A stretch of DNA of 57,160 nt from the IMG/VR virus record IMGVR_UViG_3300009151_000085, positions 1 through 57,160 of that record; one strand, given 5' to 3'. The position numbers were made by a program, and so were the translations under genes. Position 1 is the stretch's first letter; every line of letters begins with the position of its first letter. Positions 1,911 through 44,021 of the stretch are shown here, piece by piece. This DNA is from a virus. Under the pieces are notes generated by a model. The model was not told the origin of the DNA and did no database searches. It was given only the letters and a program-made list of their open reading frames with translations.

Positions 1911-2210
1911 TTAATTACCAATAATCAATCCATCCAGATCGATTCCACCACTACCTTTTGCTCTATCTTCAATGTCATCATACATATGAGACTTAACAAC
2001 TGCGGTTATTGATTGTTCGGCTTGAGCGATTTTGGTTTCCATCCAATCTTCAAGTTCCTCACCCTCTTCCATCATTTCCCACATCTTATATGCCAATGTG
2101 GCTATGGTAAACAATTGTTGTTTTGCCATATAAGAACCATCATGATCATTTTCTTTTAGAATTCTAACCATCCGTTCTAGTTGTTTTTCTGTTACTATAA
2201 TTTTTCCCAT
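1911..2210 (-). CDS. Leader-bearing small protein, 99 aa
   Basis: Starts MGKIIVTEKQLERMVRILKEN, the shared leader with a possible prohead-protease site after LKE. The body is helical and acidic (YKMWEMMEEGEELEDWMETK) and ends with a glycine-rich SGGIDLDGLIIGN tail. No enzyme motif is visible. It is 11 nt downstream of the gene at 2222-2593 in one operon. The leader and operon suggest an internal virion protein; that role is an inference. Confidence 0.75.
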   Translation of the reverse strand: MGKIIVTEKQLERMVRILKENDHDGSYMAKQQLFTIATLAYKMWEMMEEGEELEDWMETKIAQAEQSITAVVKSHMYDDIEDRAKGSGGIDLDGLIIGN

Positions 2211-2221
2211 AATTTTTTATT

Positions 2222-2593
2222 TTAATTCCAAGTCCGACAGCTCCAATATCTAGGTTTCCATCTGGGACCTGGACTGTCACAATTCATTCTCGATCTAAAC
2301 GATTTTCTACGTTCAGGATTATTTTTTTTAATAACCATTCGTTTCCCATGTGCAGATTTACCACCAAATCCAAAATTCACCTTAACGACTTTTCCTTTAT
2401 CGTTTTTAACATAAACCTTAAACTTTTTAATATCCCCCTGCATGACTTTACCAAGACTCACATTTCTACCTTGATACTCCGCTTCAGTTAGAATGTTAAC
2501 CTCTTCGACCGATCCAAACTCATCCTCATATATTAAGGAATTCGTTAGAAACTCTTCTTTCAATACCTTTTTTATGATTTCATTAATATTCAT
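2222..2593 (-). CDS. Leader-bearing basic protein, 123 aa
   Basis: Starts MNINEIIKKVLKEEF, another version of the shared leader with a cut site after LKE. The body contains KKFKVYVKNDKGKVVKVNFG, then a strongly basic stretch (NNPERRKSFRSRMNC) and an aromatic end (RYWSCRTWN). This suggests a small nucleic-acid-binding domain with conserved Cys. I start at 2593 because the leader begins there and the TATTTATT motif lies 3 nt upstream; an ATG five codons earlier would run into that motif. It is the first gene of an operon with 1911-2210. Confidence 0.75.
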   Translation of the reverse strand: MNINEIIKKVLKEEFLTNSLIYEDEFGSVEEVNILTEAEYQGRNVSLGKVMQGDIKKFKVYVKNDKGKVVKVNFGFGGKSAHGKRMVIKKNNPERRKSFRSRMNCDSPGPRWKPRYWSCRTWN

Positions 2594-2596
2594 AAT

Positions 2597-2604
2597 AATA
2601 AATA
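2597..2604 (-). promoter_or_regulatory. Putative late motif TATTTATT
   Basis: TATTTATT 3 nt before the ATG at 2593, which helps decide the start of that gene. Confidence 0.45.
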
Positions 2605-2614
2605 TCACACAAAC

Positions 2615-2643
2615 AAAAAAAAGGTGAGATTTCTCTCACCTTT
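2615..2643 (-). terminator. Strong rho-independent terminator
   Basis: A perfect 10-bp stem, AAAGGTGAGA / TCTCACCTTT, with a four-base loop. On the minus strand it is followed by eight T. It ends the transcript of the gene at 2707-2973. Confidence 0.85.
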
Positions 2644-2706
2644 CAGGGTCGATCACGGATTGTGATTCGAGCAACCACCACTTTGTTTTAAAGAGAAACA
2701 AAGAAA

Positions 2707-2973
2707 CTACCCTTCCAACTTAGATTTTGCAACCATAACATCAACCATCGACACCTCTTTTGCTACACCTATAACCACACACTCTTTTAAGATTTCAGTT
2801 GGTACGTGAATCAAAAAGTCCTTCCCGTTGAACGTAGATAGTGATTGTTTCAACTCAATAGACGAGTGTATCATTTTTAAAAACAATTTGAATTGTACCT
2901 CATCGATGAATGTCTCATTCAATATTTCCCCATATTTAGGATGAATAATCGTTATGTGTTTTAGTGTCGCCAT
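2707..2973 (-). CDS. Hypothetical protein, 88 aa
   Basis: An unrecognised small soluble protein beginning MATLKHITIIHPKYGEIL. It has alternating hydrophobic strands and a helical C terminus (VVIGVAKEVSMVDVMVAKSKLEG). It forms a single-gene transcript between a TAnnTTTG promoter (2988-2995) and a strong terminator, with about 60 nt of 3' untranslated region. No motif points to a function. Confidence 0.7.
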   Translation of the reverse strand: MATLKHITIIHPKYGEILNETFIDEVQFKLFLKMIHSSIELKQSLSTFNGKDFLIHVPTEILKECVVIGVAKEVSMVDVMVAKSKLEG

Positions 2974-2987
2974 ATCTTTGATTTAAA

Positions 2988-2995
2988 CAAATGTA
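2988..2995 (-). promoter_or_regulatory. Bacteroidota -7 box TACATTTG
   Basis: TACATTTG matches TAnnTTTG 15 nt before the ATG at 2973. No clear -33 TTTG lies at the expected distance, so it is the weaker of the host-type promoters. Confidence 0.45.
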
Positions 2996-3005
2996 ATACT
3001 TTTTT

Positions 3006-3935: not shown

Positions 3936-4448
3936 TTATTTGTTTGTTCTTCTGTATTGTACGTCTTTACCTTTAAGAGCTAACGCCAATCCTGCAGCAA
4001 CCATAGCTACTGAAATAGGTCCAGCATAATTACCAGCTCCTGCCTGTTCAATAAATGAATGTATTTTTGATAACATCGCAGATTCAGACCAACCTGTGAA
4101 TTCGCTAAGTGTTGCGATTACCCCAGCGGCCGCAGTACCTAAACCACCTCTAATCATCATTTTTTCTTTGAAGTTTGACATTCTACTTTTAGAATCCATT
4201 TCTTCTTCTTGAATACCTCTTGATCGTTTTGGTGCTGATTTTCGTTTCAAATCACGTATTTCCTCGTCGTCTAGTTTTGGTAAAACTTTTTTATCAAGGA
4301 ATTTGGCAATTAAATCTATCGCATCTTGTTTGGACATTTCATTATCACCATCTTCATCTGTTGATTTCATATCGTTTTCAGACTCTTCAACGATTCTTTT
4401 AATAAGATCAGTTAAATCCGATTCTGTTAGTCTAACTATTTTTTTCAT
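3936..4448 (-). CDS. Leader-bearing protein with hydrophobic C-terminal region, 170 aa
   Basis: Starts MKKIVRLTESDLTDLIKRIV followed by EES, the clearest form of the leader (possible cleavage after IVE). Residues 25-90 are highly charged. Residues 95-160 hold two Gly/Ala-rich hydrophobic segments (GGLGTAAAGVIATLSEFTGW and SVAMVAAGLALALKG) that could enter a membrane. It is a single gene with a TATTTATA site 34 nt upstream. The leader plus amphipathic C terminus would fit an internal head protein delivered with the DNA; this is inference. Confidence 0.8.
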   Translation of the reverse strand: MKKIVRLTESDLTDLIKRIVEESENDMKSTDEDGDNEMSKQDAIDLIAKFLDKKVLPKLDDEEIRDLKRKSAPKRSRGIQEEEMDSKSRMSNFKEKMMIRGGLGTAAAGVIATLSEFTGWSESAMLSKIHSFIEQAGAGNYAGPISVAMVAAGLALALKGKDVQYRRTNK

Positions 4449-6016: not shown

Positions 6017-6373
6017 ATGAATATTATTATAAATGAAAACACATTCAAATGTAGGCTTTGTGCAACACCAAAAACAATACGTGAAGGGATGCAAAACAAA
6101 ACCTTCGATATGAATTTTAACGGCATGTTTTTTATGTTACCAAACAATGGTGATCAAAGTTTTTGGATGTACGATTGTATAACTCCATTAGATATTATAT
6201 TCATAAATGGTGATACCATTACATCCATTCATAGTGACTGTCCACCATGTCATGATGAATCGTCATGTGAATCCTACGCTGGAGTTGGTGATCAAGTGTT
6301 GGAGGTTGTTGGTGGTACCTGTGATTCACTAGGAATTAAAGTGGGGGACAGTGTAAAGACGTCCCTATATTAA
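6017..6373 (+). CDS. DUF192 family protein, 118 aa
   Basis: A complete DUF192 domain: EGMQNK near residue 24, GMFFMLPN, the hallmark FWMYDCITPLDIIFI around 52-66, the SIHSDCPPC region, then VLEVVGGTCDSLGIKVGD at about 96-113. The family is a small beta-rich fold of unknown biochemical role, often secreted in bacteria. Here there is no signal peptide, and the start MNIIINENTF replaces it. Extra cysteines (CPPCHDESSC) are present. It is one of the few plus-strand genes, alone, with the TATTTATA signal directly upstream. Confidence 0.85.
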   Translation: MNIIINENTFKCRLCATPKTIREGMQNKTFDMNFNGMFFMLPNNGDQSFWMYDCITPLDIIFINGDTITSIHSDCPPCHDESSCESYAGVGDQVLEVVGGTCDSLGIKVGDSVKTSLY

Positions 6374-7961: not shown

Positions 7962-9380
7962 TTATTGGTTATTTATTTTATCTTGTAATACTTTAACAAA
8001 TTGATCTTGTATCATCTTAGTAAACTTAACCGATGCAGAATCCTCACCTTCCGCTTTATCATTTTTACCAGGTCTTGACGGTCGACCTAAATAATTAAGT
8101 CCTGAAATGTTTGTAATACATTTGTGTCCCCCACTGTTAGATTGTATCAAATCCCAAGCATTAATAGTTATTTTATCCATTAACTCTATTTGTTTTGGTG
8201 ATAATGATTTAAATGGTTTAGTCATTATATTACCTAATATATCAAGTAATTTCTGTCCATTACCCATTTGTTTAAATTTTTCACCATATAACGCAACAAA
8301 GTCTTTAAATGTAAATCCAACTGACTCAGAATTCATACCACTTTCAGACACCCATTTAATTGTTGATAAGGGGATTTCTTTCGATTTTAATTGTGATTCC
8401 CATCTACTTAATACCTCATCTTTAATCTCACCTAAGTTAACACCTTTCAATGCTCTACTTTCTTTAAATGGATTACAAGACGCTTGTACCAATCCCATCG
8501 GCCAAGCAAGAACTATAAAGTCAGCTTCAGGATTGTTTCTGAATGGGGTATATCTGTCGTATGAACCCGGTTTGAACATAGAACCCCCTCCATATTGTTT
8601 GATAATATTTCCAACCATTTCAACGTTTTTATGACTCTTCATTGAAGATACATAATCTTCTTTGTTCTTTTCTAATTGTGGAATGTCAGCATATCCTTTT
8701 TCTTGGACAATCTGTTTGATTCTTAACAATATGTTTAATAATGATGGGGTACAATCCAATACCAACGTTTCTAAGAACCCTGGTTTGTTTTTAAATGCTA
8801 ATAACAATTTGTTTGTTACTAACCCCATTAACATTTTATTTCTTTTTAATGATGAATCTTTATCAAATTTAAATAAGTAAGACATTACCTGTTCAGGGCT
8901 AATGTTTTGAACTGCGTAGTTTGCAGAATCCACAGTTGAAATTAATATAATATCATCATTCGGAAATAATTCTTTTGGTGATATACTTTGCGAAATTGTT
9001 TCAACGTTTGATCTTGAACTTTTAAAACTTGTTGACGTTCCTGATTCAACACCAGCTTGGCTATCGTGGTGATCAGTATGAATAACAAACATTGGTTTAC
9101 CGTGAGCAAAATCCACCAATACAGGCATTACATCACCACTAGCGTCCGGTTTCTTTATCGACCATTCCTTATCTCCGTATTGGATAATTTCAGCATCAAC
9201 AACTTTGATACCTTGATTCTCCAAATAAGCTTTCATAGCGATAGCTGTTGTAACACCATCCAAATCTTGATGGAAATATATTTTAGCTTTTTTATATCTA
9301 TCTCTAATCTTACCTATGTCTCTTATTCCAGACTCTTTGATAAGTTGTTTGTATTGGCTTTCAGTTATAATTATCTTCAT
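7962..9380 (-). CDS. DHH-family phosphoesterase with capsid-type leader, 472 aa
   Basis: Residues 1-17 (MKIIITESQYKQLIKES) form the shared leader with a possible cut after IKE. A DHH (RecJ/NrnA-type) domain follows, with FHQDLDGVTTA (motif I, about 37-47), LVDFAH (motif II), HTDHHDSQ (the DHH signature, about 98-105) and STVDSANYA (motif IV). Such enzymes hydrolyse single-stranded DNA or short oligonucleotides using metal ions. The C-terminal half, with FNPEAD/FIVLAWPMGL-type strands, may be the substrate-binding part. It is a single gene with TATTTATA 4 nt before ATG. The leader suggests an enzyme carried in the virion and injected with DNA. Confidence 0.8.
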   Translation of the reverse strand: MKIIITESQYKQLIKESGIRDIGKIRDRYKKAKIYFHQDLDGVTTAIAMKAYLENQGIKVVDAEIIQYGDKEWSIKKPDASGDVMPVLVDFAHGKPMFVIHTDHHDSQAGVESGTSTSFKSSRSNVETISQSISPKELFPNDDIILISTVDSANYAVQNISPEQVMSYLFKFDKDSSLKRNKMLMGLVTNKLLLAFKNKPGFLETLVLDCTPSLLNILLRIKQIVQEKGYADIPQLEKNKEDYVSSMKSHKNVEMVGNIIKQYGGGSMFKPGSYDRYTPFRNNPEADFIVLAWPMGLVQASCNPFKESRALKGVNLGEIKDEVLSRWESQLKSKEIPLSTIKWVSESGMNSESVGFTFKDFVALYGEKFKQMGNGQKLLDILGNIMTKPFKSLSPKQIELMDKITINAWDLIQSNSGGHKCITNISGLNYLGRPSRPGKNDKAEGEDSASVKFTKMIQDQFVKVLQDKINNQ

Positions 9381-14321: not shown

Positions 14322-14750
14322 CTAACGCATATGGCTGAATAATTCATCAAATCCCGCCTCTATAGTAATTCCCCTTAAATGGTACACGTCACCCAACCAT
14401 ACCTTTATAACGTCCCTAACTTGGGAATCTCTAAGTCCAAAACCATATGTCAAAAATGACCAAATATCACCATAAGATATATAAATAATTTTTTTATCCA
14501 ACAACATTAAATTATTTCCGTTTTCTTGTTTAAATAAAGTCCAGTTTGCTGATAACTTACGCTGAACCATATCCAAATCATCAAACATATGTAGAAACCC
14601 CATTGGATCATTATTGAATGCCAATTTTGCCAACTCTTTTGATCCATTAACCATTTGCGAAGTATCTACCCAACCATAATCTTTAATCTGTTGTTTAAGA
14701 TTATGCTTTAACGATTCCTCTTTTAATATTTTTTTAATTAATTGCTTCAT
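14322..14750 (-). CDS. Leader-bearing protein, 142 aa
   Basis: Starts MKQLIKKILKEESLKHNLKQ, a short form of the shared leader with a possible cut after LKE. The rest (MVNGSKELAKLAFNNDPMGF, then YISYGDIWSFLTYGFGLRD) forms a compact helical body with no catalytic pattern. It lies 4 nt after the stop of the 398-aa leader-bearing gene, so the two form one operon driven from the TATTTATA at 15956. An internal virion protein is the likeliest reading. Confidence 0.7.
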   Translation of the reverse strand: MKQLIKKILKEESLKHNLKQQIKDYGWVDTSQMVNGSKELAKLAFNNDPMGFLHMFDDLDMVQRKLSANWTLFKQENGNNLMLLDKKIIYISYGDIWSFLTYGFGLRDSQVRDVIKVWLGDVYHLRGITIEAGFDELFSHMR

Positions 14751-14754: not shown

Positions 14755-15951
14755 TTAATTTTGTCTCATTACGTGGTACCACTTATTGTTTACCTTATAT
14801 TCATCATCTCTACCATCATAACCATTAAAAATATTACCATAACCGTCATCATTAATTATATCGGTAATAACACCATCGATGTCAACGAATTCTAAAAAAT
14901 AATCATCATCATAACCCATATCCTTCAGGTGTCTTAAAAAATCAGAACCAACATCATTAACTCGCCCATTTATTTCATCCTCAATAGCCGCCTCGTCGTA
15001 ATCCCCCTCTGGAGAATCGTTTATGTCCTCAATAATTTCTTCGATGTCGGTTATTTCATCTTCAATTTCTTCAACTTGATTTTCGTCTAACTCCTCGTCG
15101 TTTAATCTGATTTTTAGTTTTTCTATTTTTTGTGTATAAATATTAACGTAGTTTTTTTGTTGATGTGAAAGGGTTTTTGGGATGTCGAATTCCTCTGGAT
15201 TATTTGTTATATCATCCGAATAATAGTCATATAACCATTTGTCAACTCGATCTGTGTCTAAATTATTTTCCCAAACATACGATCTGAACGTTTCATAACC
15301 TGACTCATCAATCCTATCCTGCAGATATTCTCTAGCAACATCATCTATCTTATCATCCGGTATCACCAACCATTCGCTTTCGCCATTTTCATCTCCAAGC
15401 CATTCATAATATTTATGATTACTATCAGTCCAAATAAAATATTTATCCTCAGGTACAGTTTCCCCTTCTTCGTTTTCATATTCACCCACAGATCCGATAT
15501 CCATAAGATGTAAAAAGAGAGCTTCCGTTTCATTTGATACCTCGTCGTCATTATCTTCCACATTCCATTCACCATTCTCTCGATACCCATTAAGGACTTT
15601 AAGTTTTTTATCTAAAATCTTTTTATTTTCGATTTGCTCCATTCTACTACTATAATATCTGAACCAACCTTTAACTTTATTTTTATCGAAATAAGTTATA
15701 TTCGTTTTGGATATATCTAAATTTCCATCAACGTAATCAATACTATCAATATTTGTTATGTCACCATTATAACTTAAATTTAAATCACCATCAATTTTAA
15801 TTTTTTTACCCTTATAGTCTGGTAGTCGGTTTATAATCGATCCATCACCGTTAACGTACTTTAACAAGTCCATATACTCTTCAGGTGAAACGCTCACCCA
15901 TTCCTCATCTTGCTCTCTTAAAACCATTCTGACGTTATTTTTTAATCCCAT
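14755..15951 (-). CDS. Leader-bearing acidic protein, 398 aa
   Basis: Starts MGLKNNVRMVLREQDEE, a leader ending in the possible cut site VLRE. Residues ~45-95 carry a short leucine-rich-like ladder (KIKIDGDLNLSYNGDITNID then YVDGNLDIS). The remainder is very acidic (many DD and EE pairs) with a long coiled segment (KIEKLKIRLNDEELDENQVE) around 275-295. It has no enzyme motif. Such acidity suits a protein meant to bind basic partners or mimic DNA. TATTTATA lies 4 nt upstream of the ATG. It is probably packaged in the head. Confidence 0.75.
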   Translation of the reverse strand: MGLKNNVRMVLREQDEEWVSVSPEEYMDLLKYVNGDGSIINRLPDYKGKKIKIDGDLNLSYNGDITNIDSIDYVDGNLDISKTNITYFDKNKVKGWFRYYSSRMEQIENKKILDKKLKVLNGYRENGEWNVEDNDDEVSNETEALFLHLMDIGSVGEYENEEGETVPEDKYFIWTDSNHKYYEWLGDENGESEWLVIPDDKIDDVAREYLQDRIDESGYETFRSYVWENNLDTDRVDKWLYDYYSDDITNNPEEFDIPKTLSHQQKNYVNIYTQKIEKLKIRLNDEELDENQVEEIEDEITDIEEIIEDINDSPEGDYDEAAIEDEINGRVNDVGSDFLRHLKDMGYDDDYFLEFVDIDGVITDIINDDGYGNIFNGYDGRDDEYKVNNKWYHVMRQN

Positions 15952-19794: not shown

Positions 19795-21108
19795 TTAAGC
19801 AAATAAATGGAAATTATCATCAGAATCCATTTTCTTTCTTAAATCATCAGGTATCGACGTGCTAGGATTACTACCTTTCATATTAAGTACCGTTAATCTT
19901 GGTAAATTAACCAAACAAGCAGGTAATGGTTTCATATTTGGATTCTCAGGTAATGAAAGGAATTGTAATTTTTCAAGACTACAAAGCGATTCAGGTATTT
20001 CACTAACACATCCAACTAAGTGTATCGCAGTTAAGCTTTTAAACTTACCGATAGTATCTGGAATCACCAATGATAACGGTTCCCCACCTTTTTTGGTGAA
20101 CTCAAGTCTTTCAATGTTTTCAGGTAAAGTATCGAAGAAATCATCAAAACCATATAGAGCGATGAATTTAGATGCTGAATCTCCAGGATAGTTAACTGTA
20201 ACTTTTTTCCCGTTTTTAGATGTCAGTCCACTCATGAACTCAGGTTTAAAATACTCTTTAAGTCCTGGCTCTTGTTTGTTTAAGAATTCAACCAAGTCAA
20301 TTTGATGATCGGCAGGATCCATATACTGATTATCAGGGAAATGGAATTGGTATCTAAGAGCTGGAAGTCCTGAACTTTGTCCAACATCCATGCTACTAGT
20401 AAACGCTTGTGGAGAATTTGGTATAACCACATAAAGAGGTCCTTTAGCGATGTATCTTTCGAACCATGTAAGTCCAGGGGATGATGTACACCATCTTGTT
20501 TCACCCTTAGATGGCTCCAAATGGTTTCCACCATAAAAACACGCCGCCTTCTTACCTAACTCACCTTTATCCTCGATTCTAGCAACCGTCCATTGACTTC
20601 CACGATAAACGATTTCAGCTCCAGGGTATTGGTATGTAACTGACGCTTCAGCCTTTTCTTCTTTACTTGCCTTAGTTTTTTCTAATGAAAAATCTTTAAC
20701 TTGATCGTATAATGTCGCCGGTGTTAACTTATTAATATCTCTAAACTCTTCTGGAATTCTATTTTTAAATCTTTCATACTTCATTAAATCAGAAGTAACC
20801 GTATACAAATCCTCCATCGCCTGACCATTAGGATCAAACTCAACATCAGGTTGTATATAATTTTTAAGTATCCATTGAACATACTTTCCAATTTTTACCT
20901 TGTCCATGTCTTTTTGACTCACATTATCAGGATCGATACCATTCGGTACTCTTGTCGTTGGGTCAGCCGCGATGAGCTTAAACAACGTTTTGAAGGATAT
21001 TGCCGCCTTTTTCTCCTTTGAAGGTTTTGCGTATTTGTCTAAAAGGATTTGAAATCTCGCGTTTTCAATTATCAAATCTCTTAGGATGTCTGTAAATCTA
21101 ATAGCCAT
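19795..21108 (-). CDS. Leader-bearing leucine-rich-repeat protein, 437 aa
   Basis: It starts MAIRFTDILRDLIIENARF, a leader variant with a possible cut after IIE. A helical region follows to about residue 150. Next comes a domain with GETRWCTSSPGLTWFERYI and GPLYVVIPN (about 203-237), and finally about five leucine-rich repeats (IPDTIGKFKSLTAIHLVG, LEKLQFLSLPENPNMKPLP, LVNLPRLTVLNMKG) at ~330-420. The repeat type with IP..I/L is common in secreted effectors. The TATTTATT motif lies 16 nt upstream. A virion-carried effector acting in the host is a reasonable guess. Confidence 0.75.
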   Translation of the reverse strand: MAIRFTDILRDLIIENARFQILLDKYAKPSKEKKAAISFKTLFKLIAADPTTRVPNGIDPDNVSQKDMDKVKIGKYVQWILKNYIQPDVEFDPNGQAMEDLYTVTSDLMKYERFKNRIPEEFRDINKLTPATLYDQVKDFSLEKTKASKEEKAEASVTYQYPGAEIVYRGSQWTVARIEDKGELGKKAACFYGGNHLEPSKGETRWCTSSPGLTWFERYIAKGPLYVVIPNSPQAFTSSMDVGQSSGLPALRYQFHFPDNQYMDPADHQIDLVEFLNKQEPGLKEYFKPEFMSGLTSKNGKKVTVNYPGDSASKFIALYGFDDFFDTLPENIERLEFTKKGGEPLSLVIPDTIGKFKSLTAIHLVGCVSEIPESLCSLEKLQFLSLPENPNMKPLPACLVNLPRLTVLNMKGSNPSTSIPDDLRKKMDSDDNFHLFA

Positions 21109-25694: not shown

Positions 25695-26747
25695 TTATTG
25701 TGTTTTTTTAATATTTTGAAATAAATTTTTCATTTTTTCAATATCACTAATAATTTTTTTATCTTCAATAGATTCTAAATTAATCAATACTTTAGATGCT
25801 TTATCTGTTTTACTTCCAGTAACGTCAGTAACAGGTTGTGGAGCTTTATTATACGCTTTAGCCTTTAATTTTGATAGTAAATTATCTTTTCTAATTTGGT
25901 TTCGTTTCTGGTTAACCGGGGTTTCGACAGCATTTGCCCAATCAGGATTATTACCTGTTCTAGAAGAACCAACCACCAAGTCATCCATCCATTCTTCATC
26001 TGGTTTTATACCATCTTTAAAATCTATGTTCTCCAACCCGGCTGCGGTGTAATTATCCGTGTAATCTTTAACTGCGTTTGATGGTATGTAAGCCATTTTA
26101 TCCATCACTTCCAATTCTCCGTTTCCTTTAGGAAAATGTTTAGGATTCATTTCATACTTACCTTTAGAACCATCTTTAAGGTATCCTTTCATTTTTTTAA
26201 CAACACTTTCAATATAATCGTCATTTTGTTTTTTAGACTTATCTTGATTGTCTTTTGTTAATTTTATTGGGTTTTTAGATTTACCTTTTGGTTTGTTTTT
26301 TGATTTTTTCTTCTCTTCTAAGACGATAGTTTCAATCATATCAATCATTTCAGACTCATAAAAATAAAGTTTGTCTCCAGTGGATTCATTCATATCTAAT
26401 TCATACATAGCTCCCTTATCACATTCGACACAATCGTTCTCATCTAACTCATCACTATGTTTATTAGTCGTTTTTTTAGATCTCAACATTTTTAAGTCTT
26501 CTCTATCTATTCTATTATTTTTATTTTTATCTATTCTATATTGCTTTCCGTGTAACGTTTCTCCCATTTCTGTGGATCCATATCCACACTCATTACATTC
26601 ACCTTCAATCATTTTACTACCACACTCAGAACACATTTGTTTTTTCATAACATCAGATTCAAAAATTTTATTATTAACGTTTTTAATTCTACCCGTTATC
26701 TCCTCAGATAACACTCTATTTACTATATTTAATATTTCTCTATCCAT
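25695..26747 (-). CDS. Leader-bearing Zn-ribbon and EF-hand protein, 350 aa
   Basis: Leader MDREILNIVNRVLSEEI (possible cut after LSE). A zinc ribbon CSECGSK...CNECGYG follows at about residues 38-55. A canonical calcium loop, DKNKNNRIDRED, lies at about 73-84. There is a second Cys pair (CVECDKG), then a Lys-rich low-complexity region (EKKKSKNKPKGKSKNPIKLT) and an acidic/charged C-terminal half. The modules suggest a structural or scaffolding protein that binds metal, not an enzyme. TATTTATT lies 4 nt upstream. It follows the head/lysis operon. Confidence 0.75.
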   Translation of the reverse strand: MDREILNIVNRVLSEEITGRIKNVNNKIFESDVMKKQMCSECGSKMIEGECNECGYGSTEMGETLHGKQYRIDKNKNNRIDREDLKMLRSKKTTNKHSDELDENDCVECDKGAMYELDMNESTGDKLYFYESEMIDMIETIVLEEKKKSKNKPKGKSKNPIKLTKDNQDKSKKQNDDYIESVVKKMKGYLKDGSKGKYEMNPKHFPKGNGELEVMDKMAYIPSNAVKDYTDNYTAAGLENIDFKDGIKPDEEWMDDLVVGSSRTGNNPDWANAVETPVNQKRNQIRKDNLLSKLKAKAYNKAPQPVTDVTGSKTDKASKVLINLESIEDKKIISDIEKMKNLFQNIKKTQ

Positions 26748-27939: not shown

Positions 27940-27940
27940 A

Positions 27941-28294
27941 TTAATAGTTGTATCGTTTTCTTAATAGACTATCAACTTTTTTAGCGTCCAACATTTTAAG
28001 TTCGTCTATTTTTTTATCGTAATAATTATTTGTTACGTTTCTTTGCATTTTAATGTTAGTTATATTCTCGTCAATTTTTTTGATATCCTTTTTGTAACTA
28101 CTAATCGAATCCCTAAATTCTTTTTGCAGTTCTTTAACCTTACCAATTTCCTCGTCTAATTTTTCTAATTTGTATTTTACTAACTCTGAATTATCATTCG
28201 TTTTACTAAAAATTCTAACTAAAAAAAATAATAGTAACAGAAACCCAATAACTATTAATATATTTTTAAAATTATATGTTATAAAATCTTTCAT
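27941..28294 (-). CDS. Membrane-anchored coiled-coil protein, Rz-like, 117 aa
   Basis: One N-terminal transmembrane helix (ILIVIGFLLLLFFLVRIF, about residues 12-29) is followed by a long charged coiled coil to the end. That is the topology of an inner-membrane spanin (Rz). It is 1 nt downstream of the 180-aa gene and 1 nt upstream of the secreted coiled-coil partner. The lysis-like pairing is inferred from order and topology. Confidence 0.65.
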   Translation of the reverse strand: MKDFITYNFKNILIVIGFLLLLFFLVRIFSKTNDNSELVKYKLEKLDEEIGKVKELQKEFRDSISSYKKDIKKIDENITNIKMQRNVTNNYYDKKIDELKMLDAKKVDSLLRKRYNY

Positions 28295-28295
28295 T

Positions 28296-28838
28296 CTAGT
28301 TTTCTGTAGTTATTGATTTTCTTCTTAGTGATATCACTTTAGCCCACTTTGTTTTAAATTTTTCATAAAAAGAGGTTAGTTTGGTAATCAACTCAGTTAA
28401 TTTATCGTCCAATTTAATCATGTCTCCATTAACGTACACCCCATTGTTTTCTCCTATAGAAAAGAAAAACTCCAAATCAAAATCAATAACCTTACCACTC
28501 CATTGTACTTCGTTATGGTATACCTTTAGAACCCCAAAATCAGATAAATCAGATACATCGGAAACGAACTCATCCATCGTTTCCTGATAACATGTTTTTT
28601 CCTCTGTTGTTAATTCTAAATCACTTTTATCTTTACCATGAAGAGTTAAGAGTCCACCAGATATACGATACGTTTTAGATTTATCTTTTTTAACGTCATC
28701 AGTATCAATTTCAGCTTTCTCCACGTCTGAGTCTATATTGTTCTCAATACTTTTAGCCATATTATTAATGGTGGATTGTTCCATTAATATTCTCGTTTTC
28801 TTTAAAAGAGATTTTAATTCGTCGTATTCGTTAGTCAT
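28296..28838 (-). CDS. Leader-bearing protein, 180 aa
   Basis: It starts MTNEYDELKSLLKKTRILME, which ends in the pattern RILMEQ and so may be cut after LME. An acidic linker leads to a compact domain from YRISGGLLTLHGKDKSDLEL to GVYVNGDMIKLDDKLTELIT (about residues 57-150) with a basic C terminus. No enzyme motif. It lies in the operon 30592-26769 between the amidase-like and spanin-like genes and overlaps the former by 8 nt. Likely a virion component. Confidence 0.65.
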   Translation of the reverse strand: MTNEYDELKSLLKKTRILMEQSTINNMAKSIENNIDSDVEKAEIDTDDVKKDKSKTYRISGGLLTLHGKDKSDLELTTEEKTCYQETMDEFVSDVSDLSDFGVLKVYHNEVQWSGKVIDFDLEFFFSIGENNGVYVNGDMIKLDDKLTELITKLTSFYEKFKTKWAKVISLRRKSITTEN

Positions 28839-30592: not shown

Positions 30593-30609
30593 AATATTAA
30601 ACTATAATT

Positions 30610-30617
30610 AATAAATA
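30610..30617 (-). promoter_or_regulatory. Putative late motif TATTTATT
   Basis: TATTTATT 17 nt before the ATG at 30592. It is also in the short space shared with the divergent gene at 30641. Confidence 0.4.
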
Positions 30618-30640
30618 CTTATAATAAAGGTAATGTAACA

Positions 30641-31048
30641 ATGACATCATTAAGAGAGAGTATACTGAAAAATTTATTACTAGAAAAAAAGATTGCACAG
30701 ATAAGGGCGAACCTTACCATAATTTTTAATTTGGGGTATAAACGTGGTGCAGTTCAAGGTATGAAATCACATGCCGAACATAGAAAAAATAGACACCAGG
30801 GTGATCCTATTAGGGATTATGATATTTTAAGTGCAGTTGAGAAATCAAAAGACACTATCGTCCAATATATAGTTATTGGTGAACTTTATGATGGTGTTGA
30901 ATTTATCATTAAAGAAAAATCCACGTCACTTAATATCCCCGTAATTTTGGAGGAGGTATCACCATATGAGTTTAACATTTTCGTTAAAACGGTTATGAAA
31001 TCGGATGACTTTTTTGTTGGTCGTGATCAGATAGTAATTTCGGTATAA
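30641..31048 (+). CDS. Leader-bearing protein, 135 aa
   Basis: Starts MTSLRESILKNLLLEKKIAQ, a leader variant with a possible cut after LLE. A body rich in His/Arg follows (KSHAEHRKNRHQGDPIRDYD, about residues 43-62), then IVIGELYDGVEFIIKEKS and FFVGRDQIVISV. The pattern of a basic helix followed by beta strands looks like a small ligand- or RNA-binding fold, but no family is recognised. It is divergent from the membrane gene and ends against the terminator of the small ncRNA. Confidence 0.7.
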   Translation: MTSLRESILKNLLLEKKIAQIRANLTIIFNLGYKRGAVQGMKSHAEHRKNRHQGDPIRDYDILSAVEKSKDTIVQYIVIGELYDGVEFIIKEKSTSLNIPVILEEVSPYEFNIFVKTVMKSDDFFVGRDQIVISV

Positions 31049-31078
31049 AAATAAAACCCCCACTGGTACCAATGGGGG
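31049..31078 (-). terminator. Terminator of the small ncRNA
   Basis: CCCCCA...TGGGGG with an inner GGTACC palindrome, followed on the minus strand by TTTTATTTTT. Confidence 0.75.
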
Positions 31079-31189
31079 AGTGTAGTTTCATCTTACCGCT
31101 CGAGTAAGATTGAGGATTTTCACCCAGGGCTCTTCGTGTCCCATCCCGCCGAGTTATAAGGGTAATCTCGGTTCAACCCTTTTTGTTTG
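31049..31189 (-). ncRNA. Small structured noncoding RNA, about 140 nt
   Basis: A near-consensus promoter (31195-31226) reads into about 140 nt with no reading frame and then a strong terminator. The RNA is rich in G and C and folds locally: a perfect 7-bp ATCTTAC/GTAAGAT hairpin with loop TCGAGCG, and CCGAG/CTCGG nearer the 5' end. It lies immediately downstream of the sigma factor gene. Its size and position would suit a regulator of transcription (6S-like or antisense). It is not a tRNA by inspection. Confidence 0.65.
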
Positions 31190-31194
31190 TCTTA

Positions 31195-31226
31195 CAAATA
31201 TATGGCGAATATATTAATCCACCAAA
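31195..31226 (-). promoter_or_regulatory. Bacteroidota-type promoter for the small ncRNA
   Basis: TTTG (31223-31226), 20 nt, then TATATTTG (31195-31202), right after the stop codon of the sigma factor gene. Confidence 0.8.
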
Positions 31227-31230
31227 CATT

Positions 31231-32019
31231 TTATCCTAAATATTCAAATAAATCTGAACATTCGTTTCTTAACTTACGAAGTGCTTTTTCTTTAATCTGT
31301 CTTACACGTTCTTTTGTTAAAGAAAAATCAGTTCCAATGTCCTCCAATGTTCTTGGTGTTCCAGTGATGCCGTAGTAGTCTTCAACTATTGCTCGTTCTC
31401 TTTCATCCAAAACTGACATTATATTAATCATCTTTTGTTTCAGGGCGTCTTTGGTTGAGAATATCTCGTCGGGTGATTCCACATTTTCGTTTTTTATTAT
31501 GTCAACCAATGTGTCCCCATCTTCGTTTATGTGCATATCCAAATCAATTATTTTTGGTAGTGTTGCAAATTTGTCTGAAAGATCATTATGAGTTTTCTCG
31601 TTTGCCTTTTTTTCTTTTTGCATTTCTTGTATTACGTTCACCGGTAATCTTATTGTTCTTGAATTATCGTTCAGAGACTGTAGAATCGATTGTTTAATCC
31701 ACCAAACCGCGTATGATATGAACCTGTTATTTTTACTCCAATCAAAATTTTTAATCGCCTTCATAAGTCCAAAGTTCCCCTCAGCAATCAAATCAGATAA
31801 ATCCACCCCTTGATTCTGATATTGCTTCGCCACAGTGATAACAAATCTTAGATTACCTTCCAATAGTTCCTTATGGACAAGTTCCTTTTCTCTTTCTGAA
31901 CAATCTTCACCCATCATCTTAACGGCTAACACCTTTTCTCTTTCAGGTGTCATAACTTTTAATTTTCTGATGTCTTTTAAGTAAATTTGAATCTCGTCTT
32001 GGTTTAAAGGATTTGACAT
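31231..32019 (-). CDS. RNA polymerase sigma-70 factor, primary-like, 262 aa
   Basis: Region 1.2 (EIQIYLKDIRKLKVMTPERE) is present. Region 2 is complete and canonical (GNLRFVITVAKQYQNQGVDL, then DLIAEGNFGLMKAIKNFDW and FISYAVWWIKQSI). Region 3 and region 4 follow, with the helix-turn-helix LEDIGTDFSLTKERVRQIKE (about residues 225-245). Size and sequence fit the short primary sigma of Bacteroidota. I start at 32019, which has GGAGG at a proper distance; two in-frame ATGs lie 5 and 10 codons upstream. It may redirect host polymerase to phage promoters, perhaps the TATTTAT set. Confidence 0.93.
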   Translation of the reverse strand: MSNPLNQDEIQIYLKDIRKLKVMTPEREKVLAVKMMGEDCSEREKELVHKELLEGNLRFVITVAKQYQNQGVDLSDLIAEGNFGLMKAIKNFDWSKNNRFISYAVWWIKQSILQSLNDNSRTIRLPVNVIQEMQKEKKANEKTHNDLSDKFATLPKIIDLDMHINEDGDTLVDIIKNENVESPDEIFSTKDALKQKMINIMSVLDERERAIVEDYYGITGTPRTLEDIGTDFSLTKERVRQIKEKALRKLRNECSDLFEYLG

Positions 32020-32020
32020 T

Positions 32021-32614
32021 TTAATTCCCTCCATTTTTTCTCTTCCCATAATTGTCTAGTATTTCTTTTTCTGTTTCTGTTAATGATTCTATTCCTTCCT
32101 CTGTAATTTTCTCTAATATCTCGTCTACTGTGGGTTCCACAATTTTAATCATTTTATCCGTTTGATCTATAATCCCAAAGTCCTCTGGATTTAGGAACTC
32201 AAACGTAAAATTTCTCAATTCTTCTCTTCTTTCGTTTAATTTTAATTCTATATTTATTTCTCCTGTTTTTGTTTCTTCTTTTTTTGCGTCATCATCAACG
32301 TTTAAAAAATCTTTTTTTAATTTTTTCGTCATTTTAATATCTACACCACTTGGGGTGGTTTCTATTAAGAAATACTGATCAGTAATATCATTTAATACCA
32401 TGTCAACATATTCCTTTAACTCTGAAAATAATTCGTCACTCCTAAAGTGAAATACTACACCGAACTCACCATACGTGTACTTTAAAAATGGTGAACTAAC
32501 TAACGTTAACATCTGACCTGACAATTCTTGTATTAAGTTCTCAGATTCACTAAAATCTCCATATATGAATAACATATATGATGGATTCTTTTTTGGTTTT
32601 CTGCTTCTCGCCAT
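32021..32614 (-). CDS. Hypothetical protein upstream of the sigma factor, 197 aa
   Basis: A basic N terminus (MARSRKPKKNPSYMLFIYGD) leads to a two-strand, two-helix domain, an acidic linker and a C-terminal helix motif, DEILEKITEEGIESLTETEK. This motif is also seen at the ends of Bacteroidota rhomboid-type proteins. I start at 32614 because the promoter at 32635-32665 lies inside the longer frame. It ends 1 nt before the sigma start, so the two are co-transcribed. It could be a sigma partner (anti-sigma or co-activator), but nothing specific shows this. Confidence 0.7.
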   Translation of the reverse strand: MARSRKPKKNPSYMLFIYGDFSESENLIQELSGQMLTLVSSPFLKYTYGEFGVVFHFRSDELFSELKEYVDMVLNDITDQYFLIETTPSGVDIKMTKKLKKDFLNVDDDAKKEETKTGEINIELKLNERREELRNFTFEFLNPEDFGIIDQTDKMIKIVEPTVDEILEKITEEGIESLTETEKEILDNYGKRKNGGN

Positions 32615-32634
32615 TTTGTTTTTTAGATATACTA

Positions 32635-32665
32635 CAAAGTTATATATTTTTTCCCCAATCCCAAA
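32635..32665 (-). promoter_or_regulatory. Bacteroidota-type promoter of the sigma operon
   Basis: TTTG (32662-32665), 19 nt, then TAACTTTG (32635-32642). This decides the start of the gene at 32021-32614. Confidence 0.75.
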
Positions 32666-32717
32666 CATATTCTATAAATAAATATTTTATTAATCCTTTT
32701 TATTGTTTTTTCGTTTT

Positions 32718-32746
32718 AAAAGTGTGACACAAATATATACACTTTT
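32718..32746 (-). promoter_or_regulatory. Second promoter box inside an inverted repeat (possible operator)
   Basis: A TATATTTG -7 box (32730-32737) is bracketed by AAAAGTGT (32718-32725) and ACACTTTT (32739-32746), a perfect 8-bp inverted repeat. An inner TGTGACACA palindrome abuts it. It sits upstream of the sigma operon promoter and looks like a repressor site overlapping a promoter. Confidence 0.45.
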
Positions 32747-32763
32747 TTAGTATTTCCCACGTA

Positions 32764-33690
32764 TTATTTTAATAAAAATCCAAGTTCATAAACTAAAGGT
32801 CTCATTCTATTTTCCAAATTTTTATATAATTGTCTAAATTCTTTAAATTCTTCTGGGAAATACTCTTTCCATACCAATTTAAGTTGTGCGTAACCAGCAT
32901 CCCAACTATTAAGGTGGTTATGATCGTCAGCGAAGTGACTTCTCATTGTCATTGACATTCTAACAAGTTCTGTCGCCTTATCTAACACTATTTTAGCGTC
33001 AGGTGATAGTCGTTCGTATATGTTTTGTTCACCGAATAGTAGGGTGTGAACGTATCTATTTTTGTCAGTTCTTGCGTCACCATATAACTCATTATAGTTG
33101 TTGTTATTTGCGAGTTCCGTCATTTCTTCTTTTGACATCCAAAAAAATTCGTTTTTAATGTCCCATAGTTGTCCTTTATATGTGATTTGACGAAGGCTGG
33201 ATTGTTGACTTGAGTTATTAAATAATGAATATACAACACTGTCATTCGTGAATTGGTGGTATTGTTCGTGTTCTTCGTTTGGTGCTAAGTATTCGTCTTT
33301 ACAGTTAATCCAGTTAGTCTCAATTAATTTACGAGCCGAAAACATAGAACTAACTTTAATAAAATTTTCAGGTATTATCGGTAACCCCGATTTCCCACTA
33401 AAACAAGACGTAAACATACTAACATTTGTTCCGTTATAATAAACATTATTTCCGTTATTATAAAAATACCCAAATGACCCTTCACATAGTTTACTATACC
33501 CACTTTGTTTAACTGATAGCGCAGAACTTAACTTTGGGTGGTCAAGGTTACACTTTTTACCTTTTATTTCTTGTCTAACCCATGTTGATGCGGTAATATT
33601 CCCATCAACATTATATATTTTTTTATCACCATTTTTTATAATCTCATTAGTGATTGGTTTTGATTCTAATATGTCAAATTTATATTCCAT
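32764..33690 (-). CDS. Conserved partner of the adenine methylase, 308 aa
   Basis: No family recognised with certainty. It begins MEYKFDILESKPITNEIIKN, contains a glycine- and asparagine-rich segment (GYFYNNGNNVYYNGTN), and a C-terminal helical part (ELVRMSMTMRSHFADDHNHL then AGYAQLKLVWKEYFPEEFKE). I start at 33690; the longer frame would overlap the methylase. It lies 2 nt downstream of the methylase. In this arrangement it may be the target-recognition or restriction half of a split enzyme. Confidence 0.65.
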   Translation of the reverse strand: MEYKFDILESKPITNEIIKNGDKKIYNVDGNITASTWVRQEIKGKKCNLDHPKLSSALSVKQSGYSKLCEGSFGYFYNNGNNVYYNGTNVSMFTSCFSGKSGLPIIPENFIKVSSMFSARKLIETNWINCKDEYLAPNEEHEQYHQFTNDSVVYSLFNNSSQQSSLRQITYKGQLWDIKNEFFWMSKEEMTELANNNNYNELYGDARTDKNRYVHTLLFGEQNIYERLSPDAKIVLDKATELVRMSMTMRSHFADDHNHLNSWDAGYAQLKLVWKEYFPEEFKEFRQLYKNLENRMRPLVYELGFLLK

Positions 33691-41713: not shown

Positions 41714-41721
41714 CGTTTTTT

Positions 41722-42603
41722 TCACTTTATATCGACAAAAGTTAAATGTTTTAGATATTTTGTTATATCCATATCTAATATGGTTTGTTGAATCTGTTTT
41801 GGTATTCTGAATTCTTCGAATGTTCCATTATCTTTAACTAACACAATAATACACCCATAAACTTTAATGTTCTCATATTTAGATCCCTGTAACATCTTCA
41901 ACAATAATTTACAATAAAACGGTAATTGTGTTGAATAATGTCCAAGAGCCGTGTCGTCCAACTTTTCGAAAGGATATTTCATTTTTTTGGTGAAGTAACT
42001 TGCCTCGAAGTTTTTTGGTTTATTTGTTTTATAATCCGTTATAACCAACCCAAACTCGGTTTGTTCCTTATTCATTATGATCCACACCTTATCGGGAGCC
42101 CCCGTATAACCATACTCATCATCCCCCAGAATTAACTCCGTATCTAATAATATTGCCCCCCTTTTTTTCATGGTTTCTAAAAAGTCAGTCCCGGCTGAAA
42201 CCATAGAATCACTACGTAAAATCTGATCAAAATCACAGTCAAAAATTGGTTGTCTAACCTCTTTATCAATCCCAAATAGTTCGAGTGATATCTTCTCCAA
42301 TAAATAGTGAGTTCGACTCCCCACGTTTATTGAGTAGTCGGCAGCCGCTTTCCATTCAGCTAATAATTGTTCCTGTACGATTGGGTCACCTTTTGCTTTC
42401 TTAAATGAAATCCCTTTTGAATCAAACTTAGGGTAAAATAAAGTCATAACTTTACTAACCGACGGCCAATCACTCTTTAACTCACCTTCGGAGTTTTTCA
42501 TCGTATAGGTATGTGTGTCCTCCACAAATGTAAGTTCAAGCTCTTGTCGTCTTTTTTCTAAAATATCTAATATTTCAGTTGCAATAATTTTTAAATCTAT
42601 CAT
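41722..42603 (-). CDS. PD-(D/E)XK nuclease, Cas4/RecB-like, 293 aa
   Basis: The catalytic core is visible: an upstream Glu in LLDTELILGDD, Asp in GYTGAPDKVW (about residues 165-174) and the D-x-K of VITDYKTNKP (about 187-196). A helix with Tyr/Gln (YSTQLPFYCKLLLKML, about 236-251) matches the QhxxY motif of RecB-type nucleases. No Cys cluster for an iron-sulfur site is seen, unlike Cas4. It lies 1 nt downstream of the primase gene, so a role in replication or recombination is likely. Confidence 0.85.
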   Translation of the reverse strand: MIDLKIIATEILDILEKRRQELELTFVEDTHTYTMKNSEGELKSDWPSVSKVMTLFYPKFDSKGISFKKAKGDPIVQEQLLAEWKAAADYSINVGSRTHYLLEKISLELFGIDKEVRQPIFDCDFDQILRSDSMVSAGTDFLETMKKRGAILLDTELILGDDEYGYTGAPDKVWIIMNKEQTEFGLVITDYKTNKPKNFEASYFTKKMKYPFEKLDDTALGHYSTQLPFYCKLLLKMLQGSKYENIKVYGCIIVLVKDNGTFEEFRIPKQIQQTILDMDITKYLKHLTFVDIK

Positions 42604-42604
42604 G

Positions 42605-43525
42605 TTAATCTTTTTCTTGTATATAGTAAGGTGTGATATCCCCTCTTAAATCACAAACATCCTTATCTTTTGGTAGTTTGACGAGTTTTACTCGATTATA
42701 TAAGTCACCCCCGTTTAGTTTATCGTATAGTTTTTTGGCGTCGTCATATGCGTCCCCATCGAGACAAATGATAATATCTTTTTTTGCCTTAGTGTAGAGT
42801 TTTTCCCACATATTGTCATTGATGTATTTACCTAGTAGCGCTATCGAATTCTCCAAGAAAAACGAATCAAACACACCCTCAACAATGTAGATATCCTTTT
42901 TAAAATCAATTAAGCTTTCATTAAAGATAAGAAAGTCTTTAGCTGCTTCTGGGTTTTTGTATTTAAGTCTCGATTTGGGATTCCATGATCTTGAAACAAA
43001 AAAGTTTAATTCCCCATTTTTATTAAATGACGGCACGATTATTCGTCCAGCGTAGTCACCTTCAATACAAATCCCAATTTGATATTTATCAATAATCTCT
43101 TGGGTTATTCCTCGTTTTTTAAGGTAGTTAAATGCCTCTTTTCTTGGTATGTGAAGGGGATGTATTTCGTCAAACTTTTTATACTCTTTTGGTAGTTCTA
43201 ACTCTTTAAATACTTTTTCCTTTTTTTCAAACTTGTCCGGTCGGATTAGCTTGTAGGTTTTTTTATCTTTCTTTGACCCGAACTTATCTATCAACTTCCC
43301 TAGATGTCCATGAGTTTCGTGAGTTTCACTACACGACCAACATTTATAAATATGATTTTGGTAATTTATTTCTAAATTTCCCTTTCCGTCGGTTTTCGAT
43401 AAACCTTTAATATCGTATGAACATACAGGACAGTCAACTGAAATTTGTCCAGAATATTCATTAACACTTTTTGGTTCCCCAAAAATTGTTAGTATTAAAT
43501 CGATTAATAGTGATTCATCATCCAT
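42605..43525 (-). CDS. DnaG-type DNA primase, 306 aa
   Basis: The N-terminal zinc ribbon has CPVC...CWSC (about residues 33-63). Next comes an RNA-polymerase-like middle (KRGITQEIIDKYQIGI) and a TOPRIM domain with YIVEGVFDSFFL (Glu) and IICLDGDAYDDAKK (Asp-x-Asp) at about 213-265. This makes it a compact primase without a helicase domain; the replicative helicase is not in this window. I start at 43525 (MDDESLLIDLIL), 17 codons into the longer frame, where the conserved part begins. Confidence 0.9.
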   Translation of the reverse strand: MDDESLLIDLILTIFGEPKSVNEYSGQISVDCPVCSYDIKGLSKTDGKGNLEINYQNHIYKCWSCSETHETHGHLGKLIDKFGSKKDKKTYKLIRPDKFEKKEKVFKELELPKEYKKFDEIHPLHIPRKEAFNYLKKRGITQEIIDKYQIGICIEGDYAGRIIVPSFNKNGELNFFVSRSWNPKSRLKYKNPEAAKDFLIFNESLIDFKKDIYIVEGVFDSFFLENSIALLGKYINDNMWEKLYTKAKKDIIICLDGDAYDDAKKLYDKLNGGDLYNRVKLVKLPKDKDVCDLRGDITPYYIQEKD

Positions 43526-43565
43526 ACATATAAGATAAACATATGGAGTGGTTTTGTCAAATAAT

Positions 43566-43601
43566 AAAACCCCCACCTGTATTAGAGATGAGGGGTTTTT
43601 T
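43566..43601 (-). terminator. Terminator
   Basis: AAAACCCC pairs with GGGGTTTT around a 17-nt loop and works on either strand. It ends the single-gene transcript of 43620-44021. Confidence 0.7.
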
Positions 43602-43619
43602 AATTTTTAAATAAATTTA

Positions 43620-44021
43620 CTATCCTAAACTAAGTGCGTATTTAACCGCTTGTCTTGCACCATCTTGACCCGCAGAGAATTTTTTCAAATTTTTCCCCCC
43701 TTGGTTATAAACTTCAATTGTCCAAACACCACCTGTATTTCCTTTACCACAATTCAAAAGTACGTTAGTTCCTGTGTCATGGTTTCCCTTATACATATAA
43801 GTACAACACTTATTAATACATGGAACATTAGATTTAGGGGCTGTTTTTGAAACAAATCCAGCGAGTTTTAATTTCGGAGCAAGATCTAAAGACCACCAAT
43901 CTCTATCATTACCTCCCTCATCATTACCTCCCTCATCATTACCTCCCTTTTCTTGTTCTTTAATTACTCGTCTAACAATTCTTGTTAAATCCGATTCTGT
44001 TAATTTAATTATTCTTTTCAT
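43620..44021 (-). CDS. Leader-bearing Cys-containing protein, 133 aa
   Basis: Starts MKRIIKLTESDLTRIVRRVI followed by KEQ, the textbook leader of this genome. A perfect GGNDE triple repeat follows (GGNDEGGNDEGGND), then a domain with CINKCCTYMYKGNH, NVLLNCGKG and a C-terminal helix ARQAVKYALSLG. The four Cys could form disulfides or bind metal. It is a single gene with TATTTATA 16 nt upstream and a terminator behind. Probably packaged, perhaps acting outside the cytoplasm. Confidence 0.8.
   Translation of the reverse strand: MKRIIKLTESDLTRIVRRVIKEQEKGGNDEGGNDEGGNDRDWWSLDLAPKLKLAGFVSKTAPKSNVPCINKCCTYMYKGNHDTGTNVLLNCGKGNTGGVWTIEVYNQGGKNLKKFSAGQDGARQAVKYALSLG

Follow-up and report, generated by a model that had tools for sequence, protein, structure and literature searches.

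The 57,160-nucleotide stretch of viral DNA analyzed here (IMG/VR record IMGVR_UViG_3300009151_000085, hereafter the window) encodes a series of proteins whose bodies are unrelated and which begin with short N-terminal leaders ending in a hydrophobic residue, any residue and glutamate. From end to end and on the reverse strand, the window matches positions 176654-233812 of G001 (IMGVR_UViG_3300010158_000027) at 99.98% identity, and is a fragment of that 281,269-base jumbo phage contig. A preliminary description listed twelve starts bearing such leaders and proposed that they target proteins to the capsid, in the manner of phage T4. Eleven of the twelve do begin with a credible leader ending in [ILVM]-x-E; the remaining one, at 30641, is unsupported because it lies on the opposite strand and none of the other five genomes examined has a homologue. 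The leaders are listed below, with classes as defined in the text that follows.

3..41, minus strand: class A leader truncated by the end of the contig after 13 residues, MKKIIKLTESDLT; found in full in G001 at 233772-234551
2151..2210, minus strand: 20-residue leader MGKIIVTEKQLERMVRILKE, then N; gene 1911-2210; Glu retained in four homologues with longer leaders
2555..2593, minus strand: 13-residue leader MNINEIIKKVLKE, then E; gene 2222-2593
4383..4448, minus strand: 22-residue class A leader MKKIVRLTESDLTDLIKRIVEE, then S; gene 3936-4448
9333..9380, minus strand: 16-residue class B leader MKIIITESQYKQLIKE, then S; DHH-like gene 7962-9380; other leaders occur on the same body elsewhere
14718..14750, minus strand: 11-residue class C leader MKQLIKKILKE, then E; gene 14322-14750, one of four paralogues in G001
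15913..15951, minus strand: 13-residue class C leader MGLKNNVRMVLRE, then Q; gene 14755-15951; five homologues have longer, class A-like leaders
21064..21108, minus strand: 15-residue leader MAIRFTDILRDLIIE, then N; leucine-rich repeat (LRR)-like gene 19795-21108; close homologues have LITE/Q, LITE/D or LVTE/D (a slash marks the proposed junction)
26703..26747, minus strand: 15-residue leader MDREILNIVNRVLSE, then E; gene 25695-26747; four of five homologues have KILKE/T, KVLKE/N or KILNE/T
28779..28838, minus strand: 20-residue leader MTNEYDELKSLLKKTRILME, then Q; gene 28296-28838; the longer leaders of its homologues end in LTE/Q, ITE/Q or INE/Q (four of five) or IKE/D (one of five)
30641..30685, plus strand: proposed leader MTSLRESILKNLLLE (NLLLE), then K; unsupported
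43956..44021, minus strand: 22-residue class A leader MKRIIKLTESDLTRIVRRVIKE, then Q; gene 43620-44021

In the parent contig the leader of start 41 is completed as ...RIVRRVIKE, followed by RDERDEE. The family of gene 2222-2593 shows a second strongly conserved site, of the LTE/AEYQGR type, at about residue 37, where the conserved body of the homologues starts. The Pfam matches behind the DHH and LRR names lie below the curated cut-off, and at E 0.01 Pfam gave no match for the protein starting at 26747, previously read as a zinc ribbon with EF hand.

Scanning with the gp46-like protein of the window yielded 78 related loci, and six related contigs of 272-322 kb (G001, G005, G006, G007, G008, and G011) were taken whole. 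Sorted by eye, their leaders fall into at least six recurrent types, a wider range than the single pattern first described: class A, MKKIIRLTESDLxRIVKRVIKE/Q; class B, MKIIITESQYKxLIKE/x; class C, MKELIKKILRE/E; class D, ...IITEEEKNEIKSLYNINE/Q, plus longer forms; class E, MDKKLINEDIANMKYLFGYKAGRVISE/Q; and class F, MNLNENIHRIHQMMGIINE/N. A strict set defined by regular expressions holds 174 proteins in the six genomes (25-35 per genome; median length 170 residues) and is the basis for the counts given here; it misses some clear cases, such as an OmpA-like protein of G006. A looser set of 231 proteins forms 136 body clusters, and loose expressions of this kind admit false matches, for example thymidylate synthase and glutaredoxin-like proteins. 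The leader of a ferritin (G001 15364) is doubtful, as this protein lies outside the strict set and its two homologues have no leader. Clustering of leader genes next to one another is weak, no genome exceeding the maximum of its 1000 shuffles.

That the leaders are genuinely shared was borne out by comparison with shuffled N-termini, above which the motif stands in all six genomes. In its loosest form ([ILV][ILV]xE within residues 8-28) the motif occurs in 65 of 296 G001 proteins against 28.5 expected from shuffling (maximum 48 in 300), about a twofold excess. A tighter form, [KR]x?[ILVM][ILVM]xE[QSNDEAGT], was found in 33 of 296 against 4.6 (maximum 11), and in 31/338, 21/348, 21/301, 33/307, and 22/329 proteins of G005, G006, G007, G008, and G011, respectively, against 4.0-4.8 after shuffling. 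The loosest form is also enriched in Flavobacterium phage immuto (29/190 versus 14.1; 0 of 300 shuffles as high) and slightly in 100 kb of T4 (16/132 versus 9.9; 6 of 300 shuffles as high), and an unrelated AT-rich phage, Alsa_1 (100 kb), shows no excess of the tighter form (1/127 versus 1.7). These controls bear on the idea that the likeness is one of chance between amphipathic N-terminal helices in AT-rich genes. The loosest pattern does turn up in about 10% of shuffled N-termini, and among its matches in the window (16 of 85 genes) four are not leaders by eye and one more is the unsupported start 30641. However, class A and B starts number 11-14 in each related genome and none among 1456 open reading frames (ORFs) from 120 random viral loci, nine large control records lack any match to the DNA patterns of these two classes, the unrelated phage is not enriched, and positions within the leader are strongly conserved across unrelated bodies. 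For classes A and B, chance resemblance is refuted by the controls and this positional conservation, and as a general explanation it is barely credible. Since four of the nine large control records encode an S77-family (gp21-type) protease, the two classes are tied to a lineage and do not occur in every phage with such an enzyme. A tblastn search of isolate phages with a 23-residue class A leader gave no match, a weak test with so short a query, and a text search of the literature for the leader letters gave only noise among the matches listed.

Where the leader ends was examined with DNA patterns constrained at residues 1-12 (class A) or 1-10 (class B) and nowhere else, so that later positions were free to vary. 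The figures from these scans refer to the matches listed. For class A they comprise 150 ORFs from 118 loci, among which 111 bodies are unrelated. Outside the fixed pattern, Arg14 is present in 80 of the 111, [IV]16 in 110, [RK]18 in 102, [ILV]20 in 108, and Glu22 in 101; [ILVMF]xE occupies residues 20-22 in 101/111, with residue 20 mostly Ile, and is found within residues 13-32 in 111/111. The information content is 3.21 bits at Glu22, then 1.26 and 0.39 at the next two residues and mostly 0.1-0.3 beyond them, which marks a sharp boundary between leader and body.

Bodies are also found to have exchanged their leaders at this boundary. A body beginning SRYMFFSNL carries a class C leader in G001 and a class A leader in G008 and G006, and a body beginning AVGVP directly after the Glu follows long leaders in G001 and G008 and short ones in G007 and G006. 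The window protein starting at 15951 has a class C leader, and those of its five homologues are class A-like. The DHH-like body of the gene starting at 9380 has class B in the window and in locus L319, class A in L205, a minimal MKKLIKE/SG in G005-G007 (slightly different in G008 and G011), and M[IL]xKYxQFINE/EVG in two metagenomic phages of 635-642 kb. In a family designated A3 the Glu is invariant in 11/11 sequences behind leaders of class C or B. In 82 of 124 homologous body pairs, the alignment starts no more than 8 residues away from the chosen Glu of either member. Only visibly different pairs of leaders are counted as swaps; automatic tallies of cleavage position and automatic A/B/C labels are unreliable, as the class B site was set at the first [ILV]xE (ITE/S) and several B/C differences are trivial.

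One explanation of such a repeated start is that what is conserved is a DNA element, a signal for translation start, or a seed for recombination between cassettes, with the encoded peptide passive. Repeated leaders would indeed aid homologous exchange of cassettes, and internal-protein genes differ between T-even phages, according to extracts of one account (PMC12373910). However, 142 of the 150 class A leader DNAs (among the matches listed) are distinct and their silent positions vary freely, indicating that selection acts on the peptide, and leaders of unlike sequence have been exchanged on one and the same body; the passive-peptide explanation is therefore very improbable.

The preliminary description suggested searching the full genome for a gp21-like prohead protease. 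None of the S77 family was found in the 57-kb window, as expected from the position of the head genes outside it: in the parent contig G001, the genes for terminase, portal, gp21, a gp22-like scaffold, and gp23 stand together at 63-74 kb, and the protease there has a conserved triad. The gp21 homologues of the six genomes examined align with T4 gp21 at His, Ser, and Asp of the triad, residues named with the help of extracts of PMC5694885. Among 13 related records, seven have PF03420 (S77, gp21) over the curated cut-off and the same seven carry gp23, and neither was over the cut-off in the other six. In the phage collection gp23 is matched best by the metagenomic phage LR756508 (43%) and, among named phages, by Microcystis phage Mel-JY01 and immuto (42-43%, with 56% of the protein covered). 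The phages' own head proteins carry putative cleavage sites, matched by motif, that resemble the leader ends: an N-terminal [IL]-x-E/S in gp21, VIKE/D and LINE/A in gp23, and LV[KR]E/S in gp22, each in 6/6 genomes. Two oddities of S77 genes were seen in related records: G020 (269 kb, leader-positive) has two separate matches over the cut-off, at C1:31291-31773 and 233494-233940, and in LR756508 (locus L454, 6480-8204) the gene is broken by an intein-like domain with a LAGLIDADG match.

Leader genes also share an upstream element with genes for virion proteins. With structural and replication genes labelled by similarity to immuto and T4 proteins, TATTTAT (TATTTATA) precedes 44/65 structural, 89/174 leader, 6/51 replication, and 442/1970 other genes in the six genomes, all six of the replication genes being dnaB; the strict leader set itself contains 0/65 of the structural and 0/51 of the replication genes so labelled. 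For leader genes versus all others the odds ratio is 3.4 (p 8e-14), the association being singly significant in four of six genomes, and on independent contigs the element precedes 109/150 class A genes among the matches listed. It may represent a late promoter; since its preferred positions are about 10-14 and 20-24 nt ahead of the ATG, a translational role is also possible. Another word, TATCTTTG, is enriched upstream of genes in G005, G008, and G011, and resembles the Bacteroidota host promoter.

The common leaders, their sharp boundary, the swaps, the protease, the gp21, gp22, and gp23 sites, and the upstream element, as read from sequence, together make it highly probable that these leaders constitute a capsid-targeting system of the T4 kind, expanded several-fold and using several interchangeable leader classes. 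The T4-like interpretation offered in the preliminary description is backed by three independent lines: a protease with matching sites in head proteins, a Glu boundary at which leaders are swapped, and an upstream element common to virion genes. We infer four steps, namely core binding, cleavage, packaging, and injection. Late in infection, binding of the leader's N-terminal portion to the scaffolding core of the nascent head would bring the attached protein into the prohead; the gp21-like S77 protease of the phage would then cut after [I/L/V/M]-x-E, freeing mature cargo inside the head; and the cargo would be ejected with the DNA into the next host cell.

A number of observations weigh against this reading. 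The strict set is defined by regular expressions and its genes are ORFs called greedily. Class B is less clean than class A, with a downstream [ILVMF]xE in only 34/41 bodies among the matches listed, and some proteins beginning MK[IV][IL]ITE[NS] run directly into an ordinary conserved domain. The exact scissile bond is uncertain, since an internal [IL]TE/S in classes A and B fits the protease motif as well. The gp23 proteins have 7-11 [IL]xE in total, 4-5 of them in the first 70 residues, and the gp23 site match is suggestive, not unique. About half of the leader genes have no TATTTAT, and the element falls short of significance in G005 (p 0.052) and G007 (p 0.12). Among the tagged proteins there are PHROGs matches to HNH or homing endonucleases, which are not obvious effectors. 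Lastly, S77 was found in 15/19 leader-positive records of at least 150 kb (12/13 in a first set, plus six earlier records, three with and three without it; among the matches listed) versus 4/9 controls of that size drawn with random words (Fisher p 0.10), a weak co-occurrence that points the same way and is not significant; its use as a strong argument was dropped. One of five smaller controls (109-147 kb) has S77. The four leader-positive records without S77 look like cases of missing head modules: three also have no gp23, and the fourth contig breaks off within gp23.

Another explanation is a leader that directs proteins elsewhere, to the host membrane, a replication compartment, or the tail, with its [ILV]xE ending coincidental. 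The predicted action of several tagged proteins on the cell wall fits such a destination, as does a leader-S77 link that is not significant in this small sample. However, the motif at the boundary is the T4 gp21 consensus and recurs at sites in the gp21, gp22, and gp23 of the phage itself, and the leaders are charged and by eye have no hydrophobic stretch like that of a signal peptide, making another destination quite improbable.

Most of the bodies that follow the leaders are unmatched, with 16 Pfam families represented among 95 tagged proteins (92 of 133 representatives of the loose set picked by eye, plus three more) and 18 among 141 proteins from the scans. Those over the Pfam cut-off with a clear leader include a phage lysozyme (G001 254488), a peptidoglycan-binding protein (G006 137965), a DUF5872 protein (G005 63071), a sigma factor of the extracytoplasmic function (ECF) type (L378), and Acb1 (G011). 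Acb1 (PF23474) was detected in 3/13 records (G010, G011, and G012) at 29.4-32.9 bits against a cut-off of 27, and all three homologues carry a class F leader; by Pfam they are predicted members of a family acting against the cyclic-oligonucleotide-based anti-phage signalling system (CBASS). T4 57B, annotated in its record as an RNA ligase and presumably the Acb1 of T4, starts without such a leader.

The A3 family probably has an ADP-ribosyltransferase (ART) fold, as judged from a model of a 137-residue homologue built with 11 sequences (predicted local distance difference test, pLDDT, 72.0). Its best structural match is a chain of the tRNA 2'-phosphotransferase type (Z 9.8; root-mean-square deviation 2.9; 93 residues aligned), and the first six Foldseek rows are likewise tRNA 2'-phosphotransferases, with a best E of 0.0043 and none at or below 0.001. 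As far as we recognize them, the 50 VIA rows of the structure search are ART-type enzymes. A sequence profile search of the PDB with the A3 alignment gave nothing useful, and for an ART-like homologue of 203 residues the model from four sequences was too poor for use (pLDDT 46.5). The HExxH motif occurs in 8/170 leader proteins versus 22/1764 others. PADLOC models identified no families among the 95 tagged proteins. Several of the tagged proteins fit the role of injected effectors.

Tagged proteins might instead be consumable components of the prohead core, cut in the head and serving assembly as scaffold or in setting head size, without being delivered. Some tagged families, those of the genes starting at 26747 and 28838, are indeed present in all six genomes examined, and in T4 the core proteins gp22, gp67, and gp68 are gp21 substrates too, according to extracts of PMC9026906 (which print 'gp6' for one of them). 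Against this stand the diversity of the bodies (136 clusters for 231 loosely defined proteins, and 111 bodies among the 150 class A ORFs listed) and the inclusion among them of enzymes (lysozyme, the Acb1 homologue, and the probable ART fold) and a sigma factor; we consider a purely structural role rather unlikely.

If capsid targeting is indeed the function of these leaders, they would constitute a readable address label from which the proteins delivered with the DNA of huge phages could be listed from sequence alone, and hundreds of 'hypothetical proteins' would become candidate injected effectors. The anti-CBASS enzyme would be predicted to arrive pre-made. What large phage heads contain, an old question, would be directly testable through N-terminal peptides, and interchangeable leaders would offer ready-made tags with which chosen proteins could be loaded into engineered phage heads. 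In a broader picture, to which we give about even chances, the head of each jumbo phage would be loaded with an arsenal of dozens of different proteins, their interchangeable leaders forming a small address code, with members disarming immunity (Acb1 against CBASS) and taking over the host (ART-fold enzyme, ECF-type sigma factor, metallopeptidases, and wall hydrolases) before phage gene expression, and leader classes may mark places or times of core loading.

Several other proteins of the window deserve mention. A DUF192 protein at 6017-6373, over the Pfam cut-off, has a start, MNIIINEN, that mimics class B; it is probably not tagged cargo. The protein at 26769-27287 is rich in segments of the types ...EATGSGSAGG... 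and ...KEATSSSSVGAYDAP... with E/A junctions, and is possibly a core protein cut several times; the protein at G001 82991-83716 resembles it in its start, IREATSTSGSGRGSY. By eye, the window also encodes an IS605-type TnpB-like protein with a CxxC zinc ribbon (529-1764), a DnaJ-like chaperone (22336-23382), an RpoD-like sigma factor (31231-32049), and tail-fiber-like proteins with collagen-like GTSG runs and long PTPTPT repeats (48675-57097). For the protein at 44697-46886, tblastn returned no match.

The closest known counterpart is the capsid-targeting sequence (CTS) of T4. Extracts of PMC9026906 describe gp21 as cutting after L/I-X-E, ten residues of internal protein III (IPIII) as sufficient for targeting, and a CTS in which targeting resides mainly in the N-terminal part, with processing at residues 8 and 10. 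Placed by motif, the T4 sites are MKTYQEFIAE/A in IPII and IPIII, ...TITE/A in IPI, and MAKINELLRE/S in gp24, and Alt begins MELITELFDED. The likeness to IPI-III and Alt lies in a short N-terminal leader on unrelated proteins, a hydrophobic-x-E end, and an S77 protease in the same phage. The cargo has parallels as well: Alt, an ADP-ribosyltransferase carried in the capsid according to its record, corresponds to the tagged ART-like A3 family, and T4 also carries anti-restriction proteins. In excerpts of accounts of related T-even phages, differing internal proteins share a common leader, at least ten having been reported, and Ip1-3 inhibit different Type IV restriction enzymes (PMC12373910; PMC3012670). 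By eye, however, leaders of classes A-F are unlike MKTYQEFIAE beyond hydrophobic-x-E, and only the megaphage DHH leader, KYxQFINE, is alike; likeness of leader sequence was not taken to define the mechanism, because in T4 itself the starts of Alt and gp24 are unlike those of the IPs. Further differences are that tagged proteins are here several times more numerous than IPI-III and Alt, that several classes coexist and swap, and that an Acb1 homologue and a sigma factor are among them.

In the giant phages phiKZ and SPN3US a prohead protease likewise removes N-terminal propeptides after Glu from several head proteins, as stated in extracts of PMC5694885 and PMC9026906. The motif given there is A-x-E or S/A-x-E, whereas residue 20 (P3) is I/L/V in 108/111 class A leaders among the matches listed; several SPN3US propeptides exceed 100 residues, and in the same extracts an identical N-terminus is described solely for the paralogues gp53 and gp54. 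The isolate immuto (NC_055915) has an annotated prohead core serine protease, a gp23 with IVSE/A, and repeated leaders of its own, of the MENFDLKKFLVENKLTxNSKILKE (MENFDLKKFLVEN) type on three proteins and the MKKQILSEQFRRMQKLAGIITES type on two. It differs in its smaller genome (160 kb) and in having no class A or B start in 218 ORFs.

Related leaders appear to extend to other metagenomic phages. In the 50 kb around the head genes of LR756508 (484 kb), [ILV][ILV]xE occurs in 34/65 N-termini versus 10.0 after shuffling (maximum 18), and about 18 leaders are by eye of the MKLSERKLRRIVKEEIxRVLxE type, resembling class A. At 27696-33575 of the same phage (L454) stand seven neighboring genes, six with short leaders (e.g. 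MKFKELLKE/Q) and several with a Y-R-G-T motif; an ART-like identity for these 'YRGT' paralogues, proposed by eye, was set aside, there being no useful Pfam match. In 150 kb of LR745206 [ILV][ILV]xE is not enriched (19/177 versus 15.4) and Yx(1-3)F[ILVM]xE is (6 versus 1.1; maximum 4). Among the titles and opening abstracts listed from the open-licence PMC literature, none describes such a system in uncultured or jumbo T4-like phages. The class of mechanism is thus known, whereas its scale, the use of multiple swappable leader classes, and the presence of anti-CBASS and sigma-factor proteins among the cargo appear to be new.

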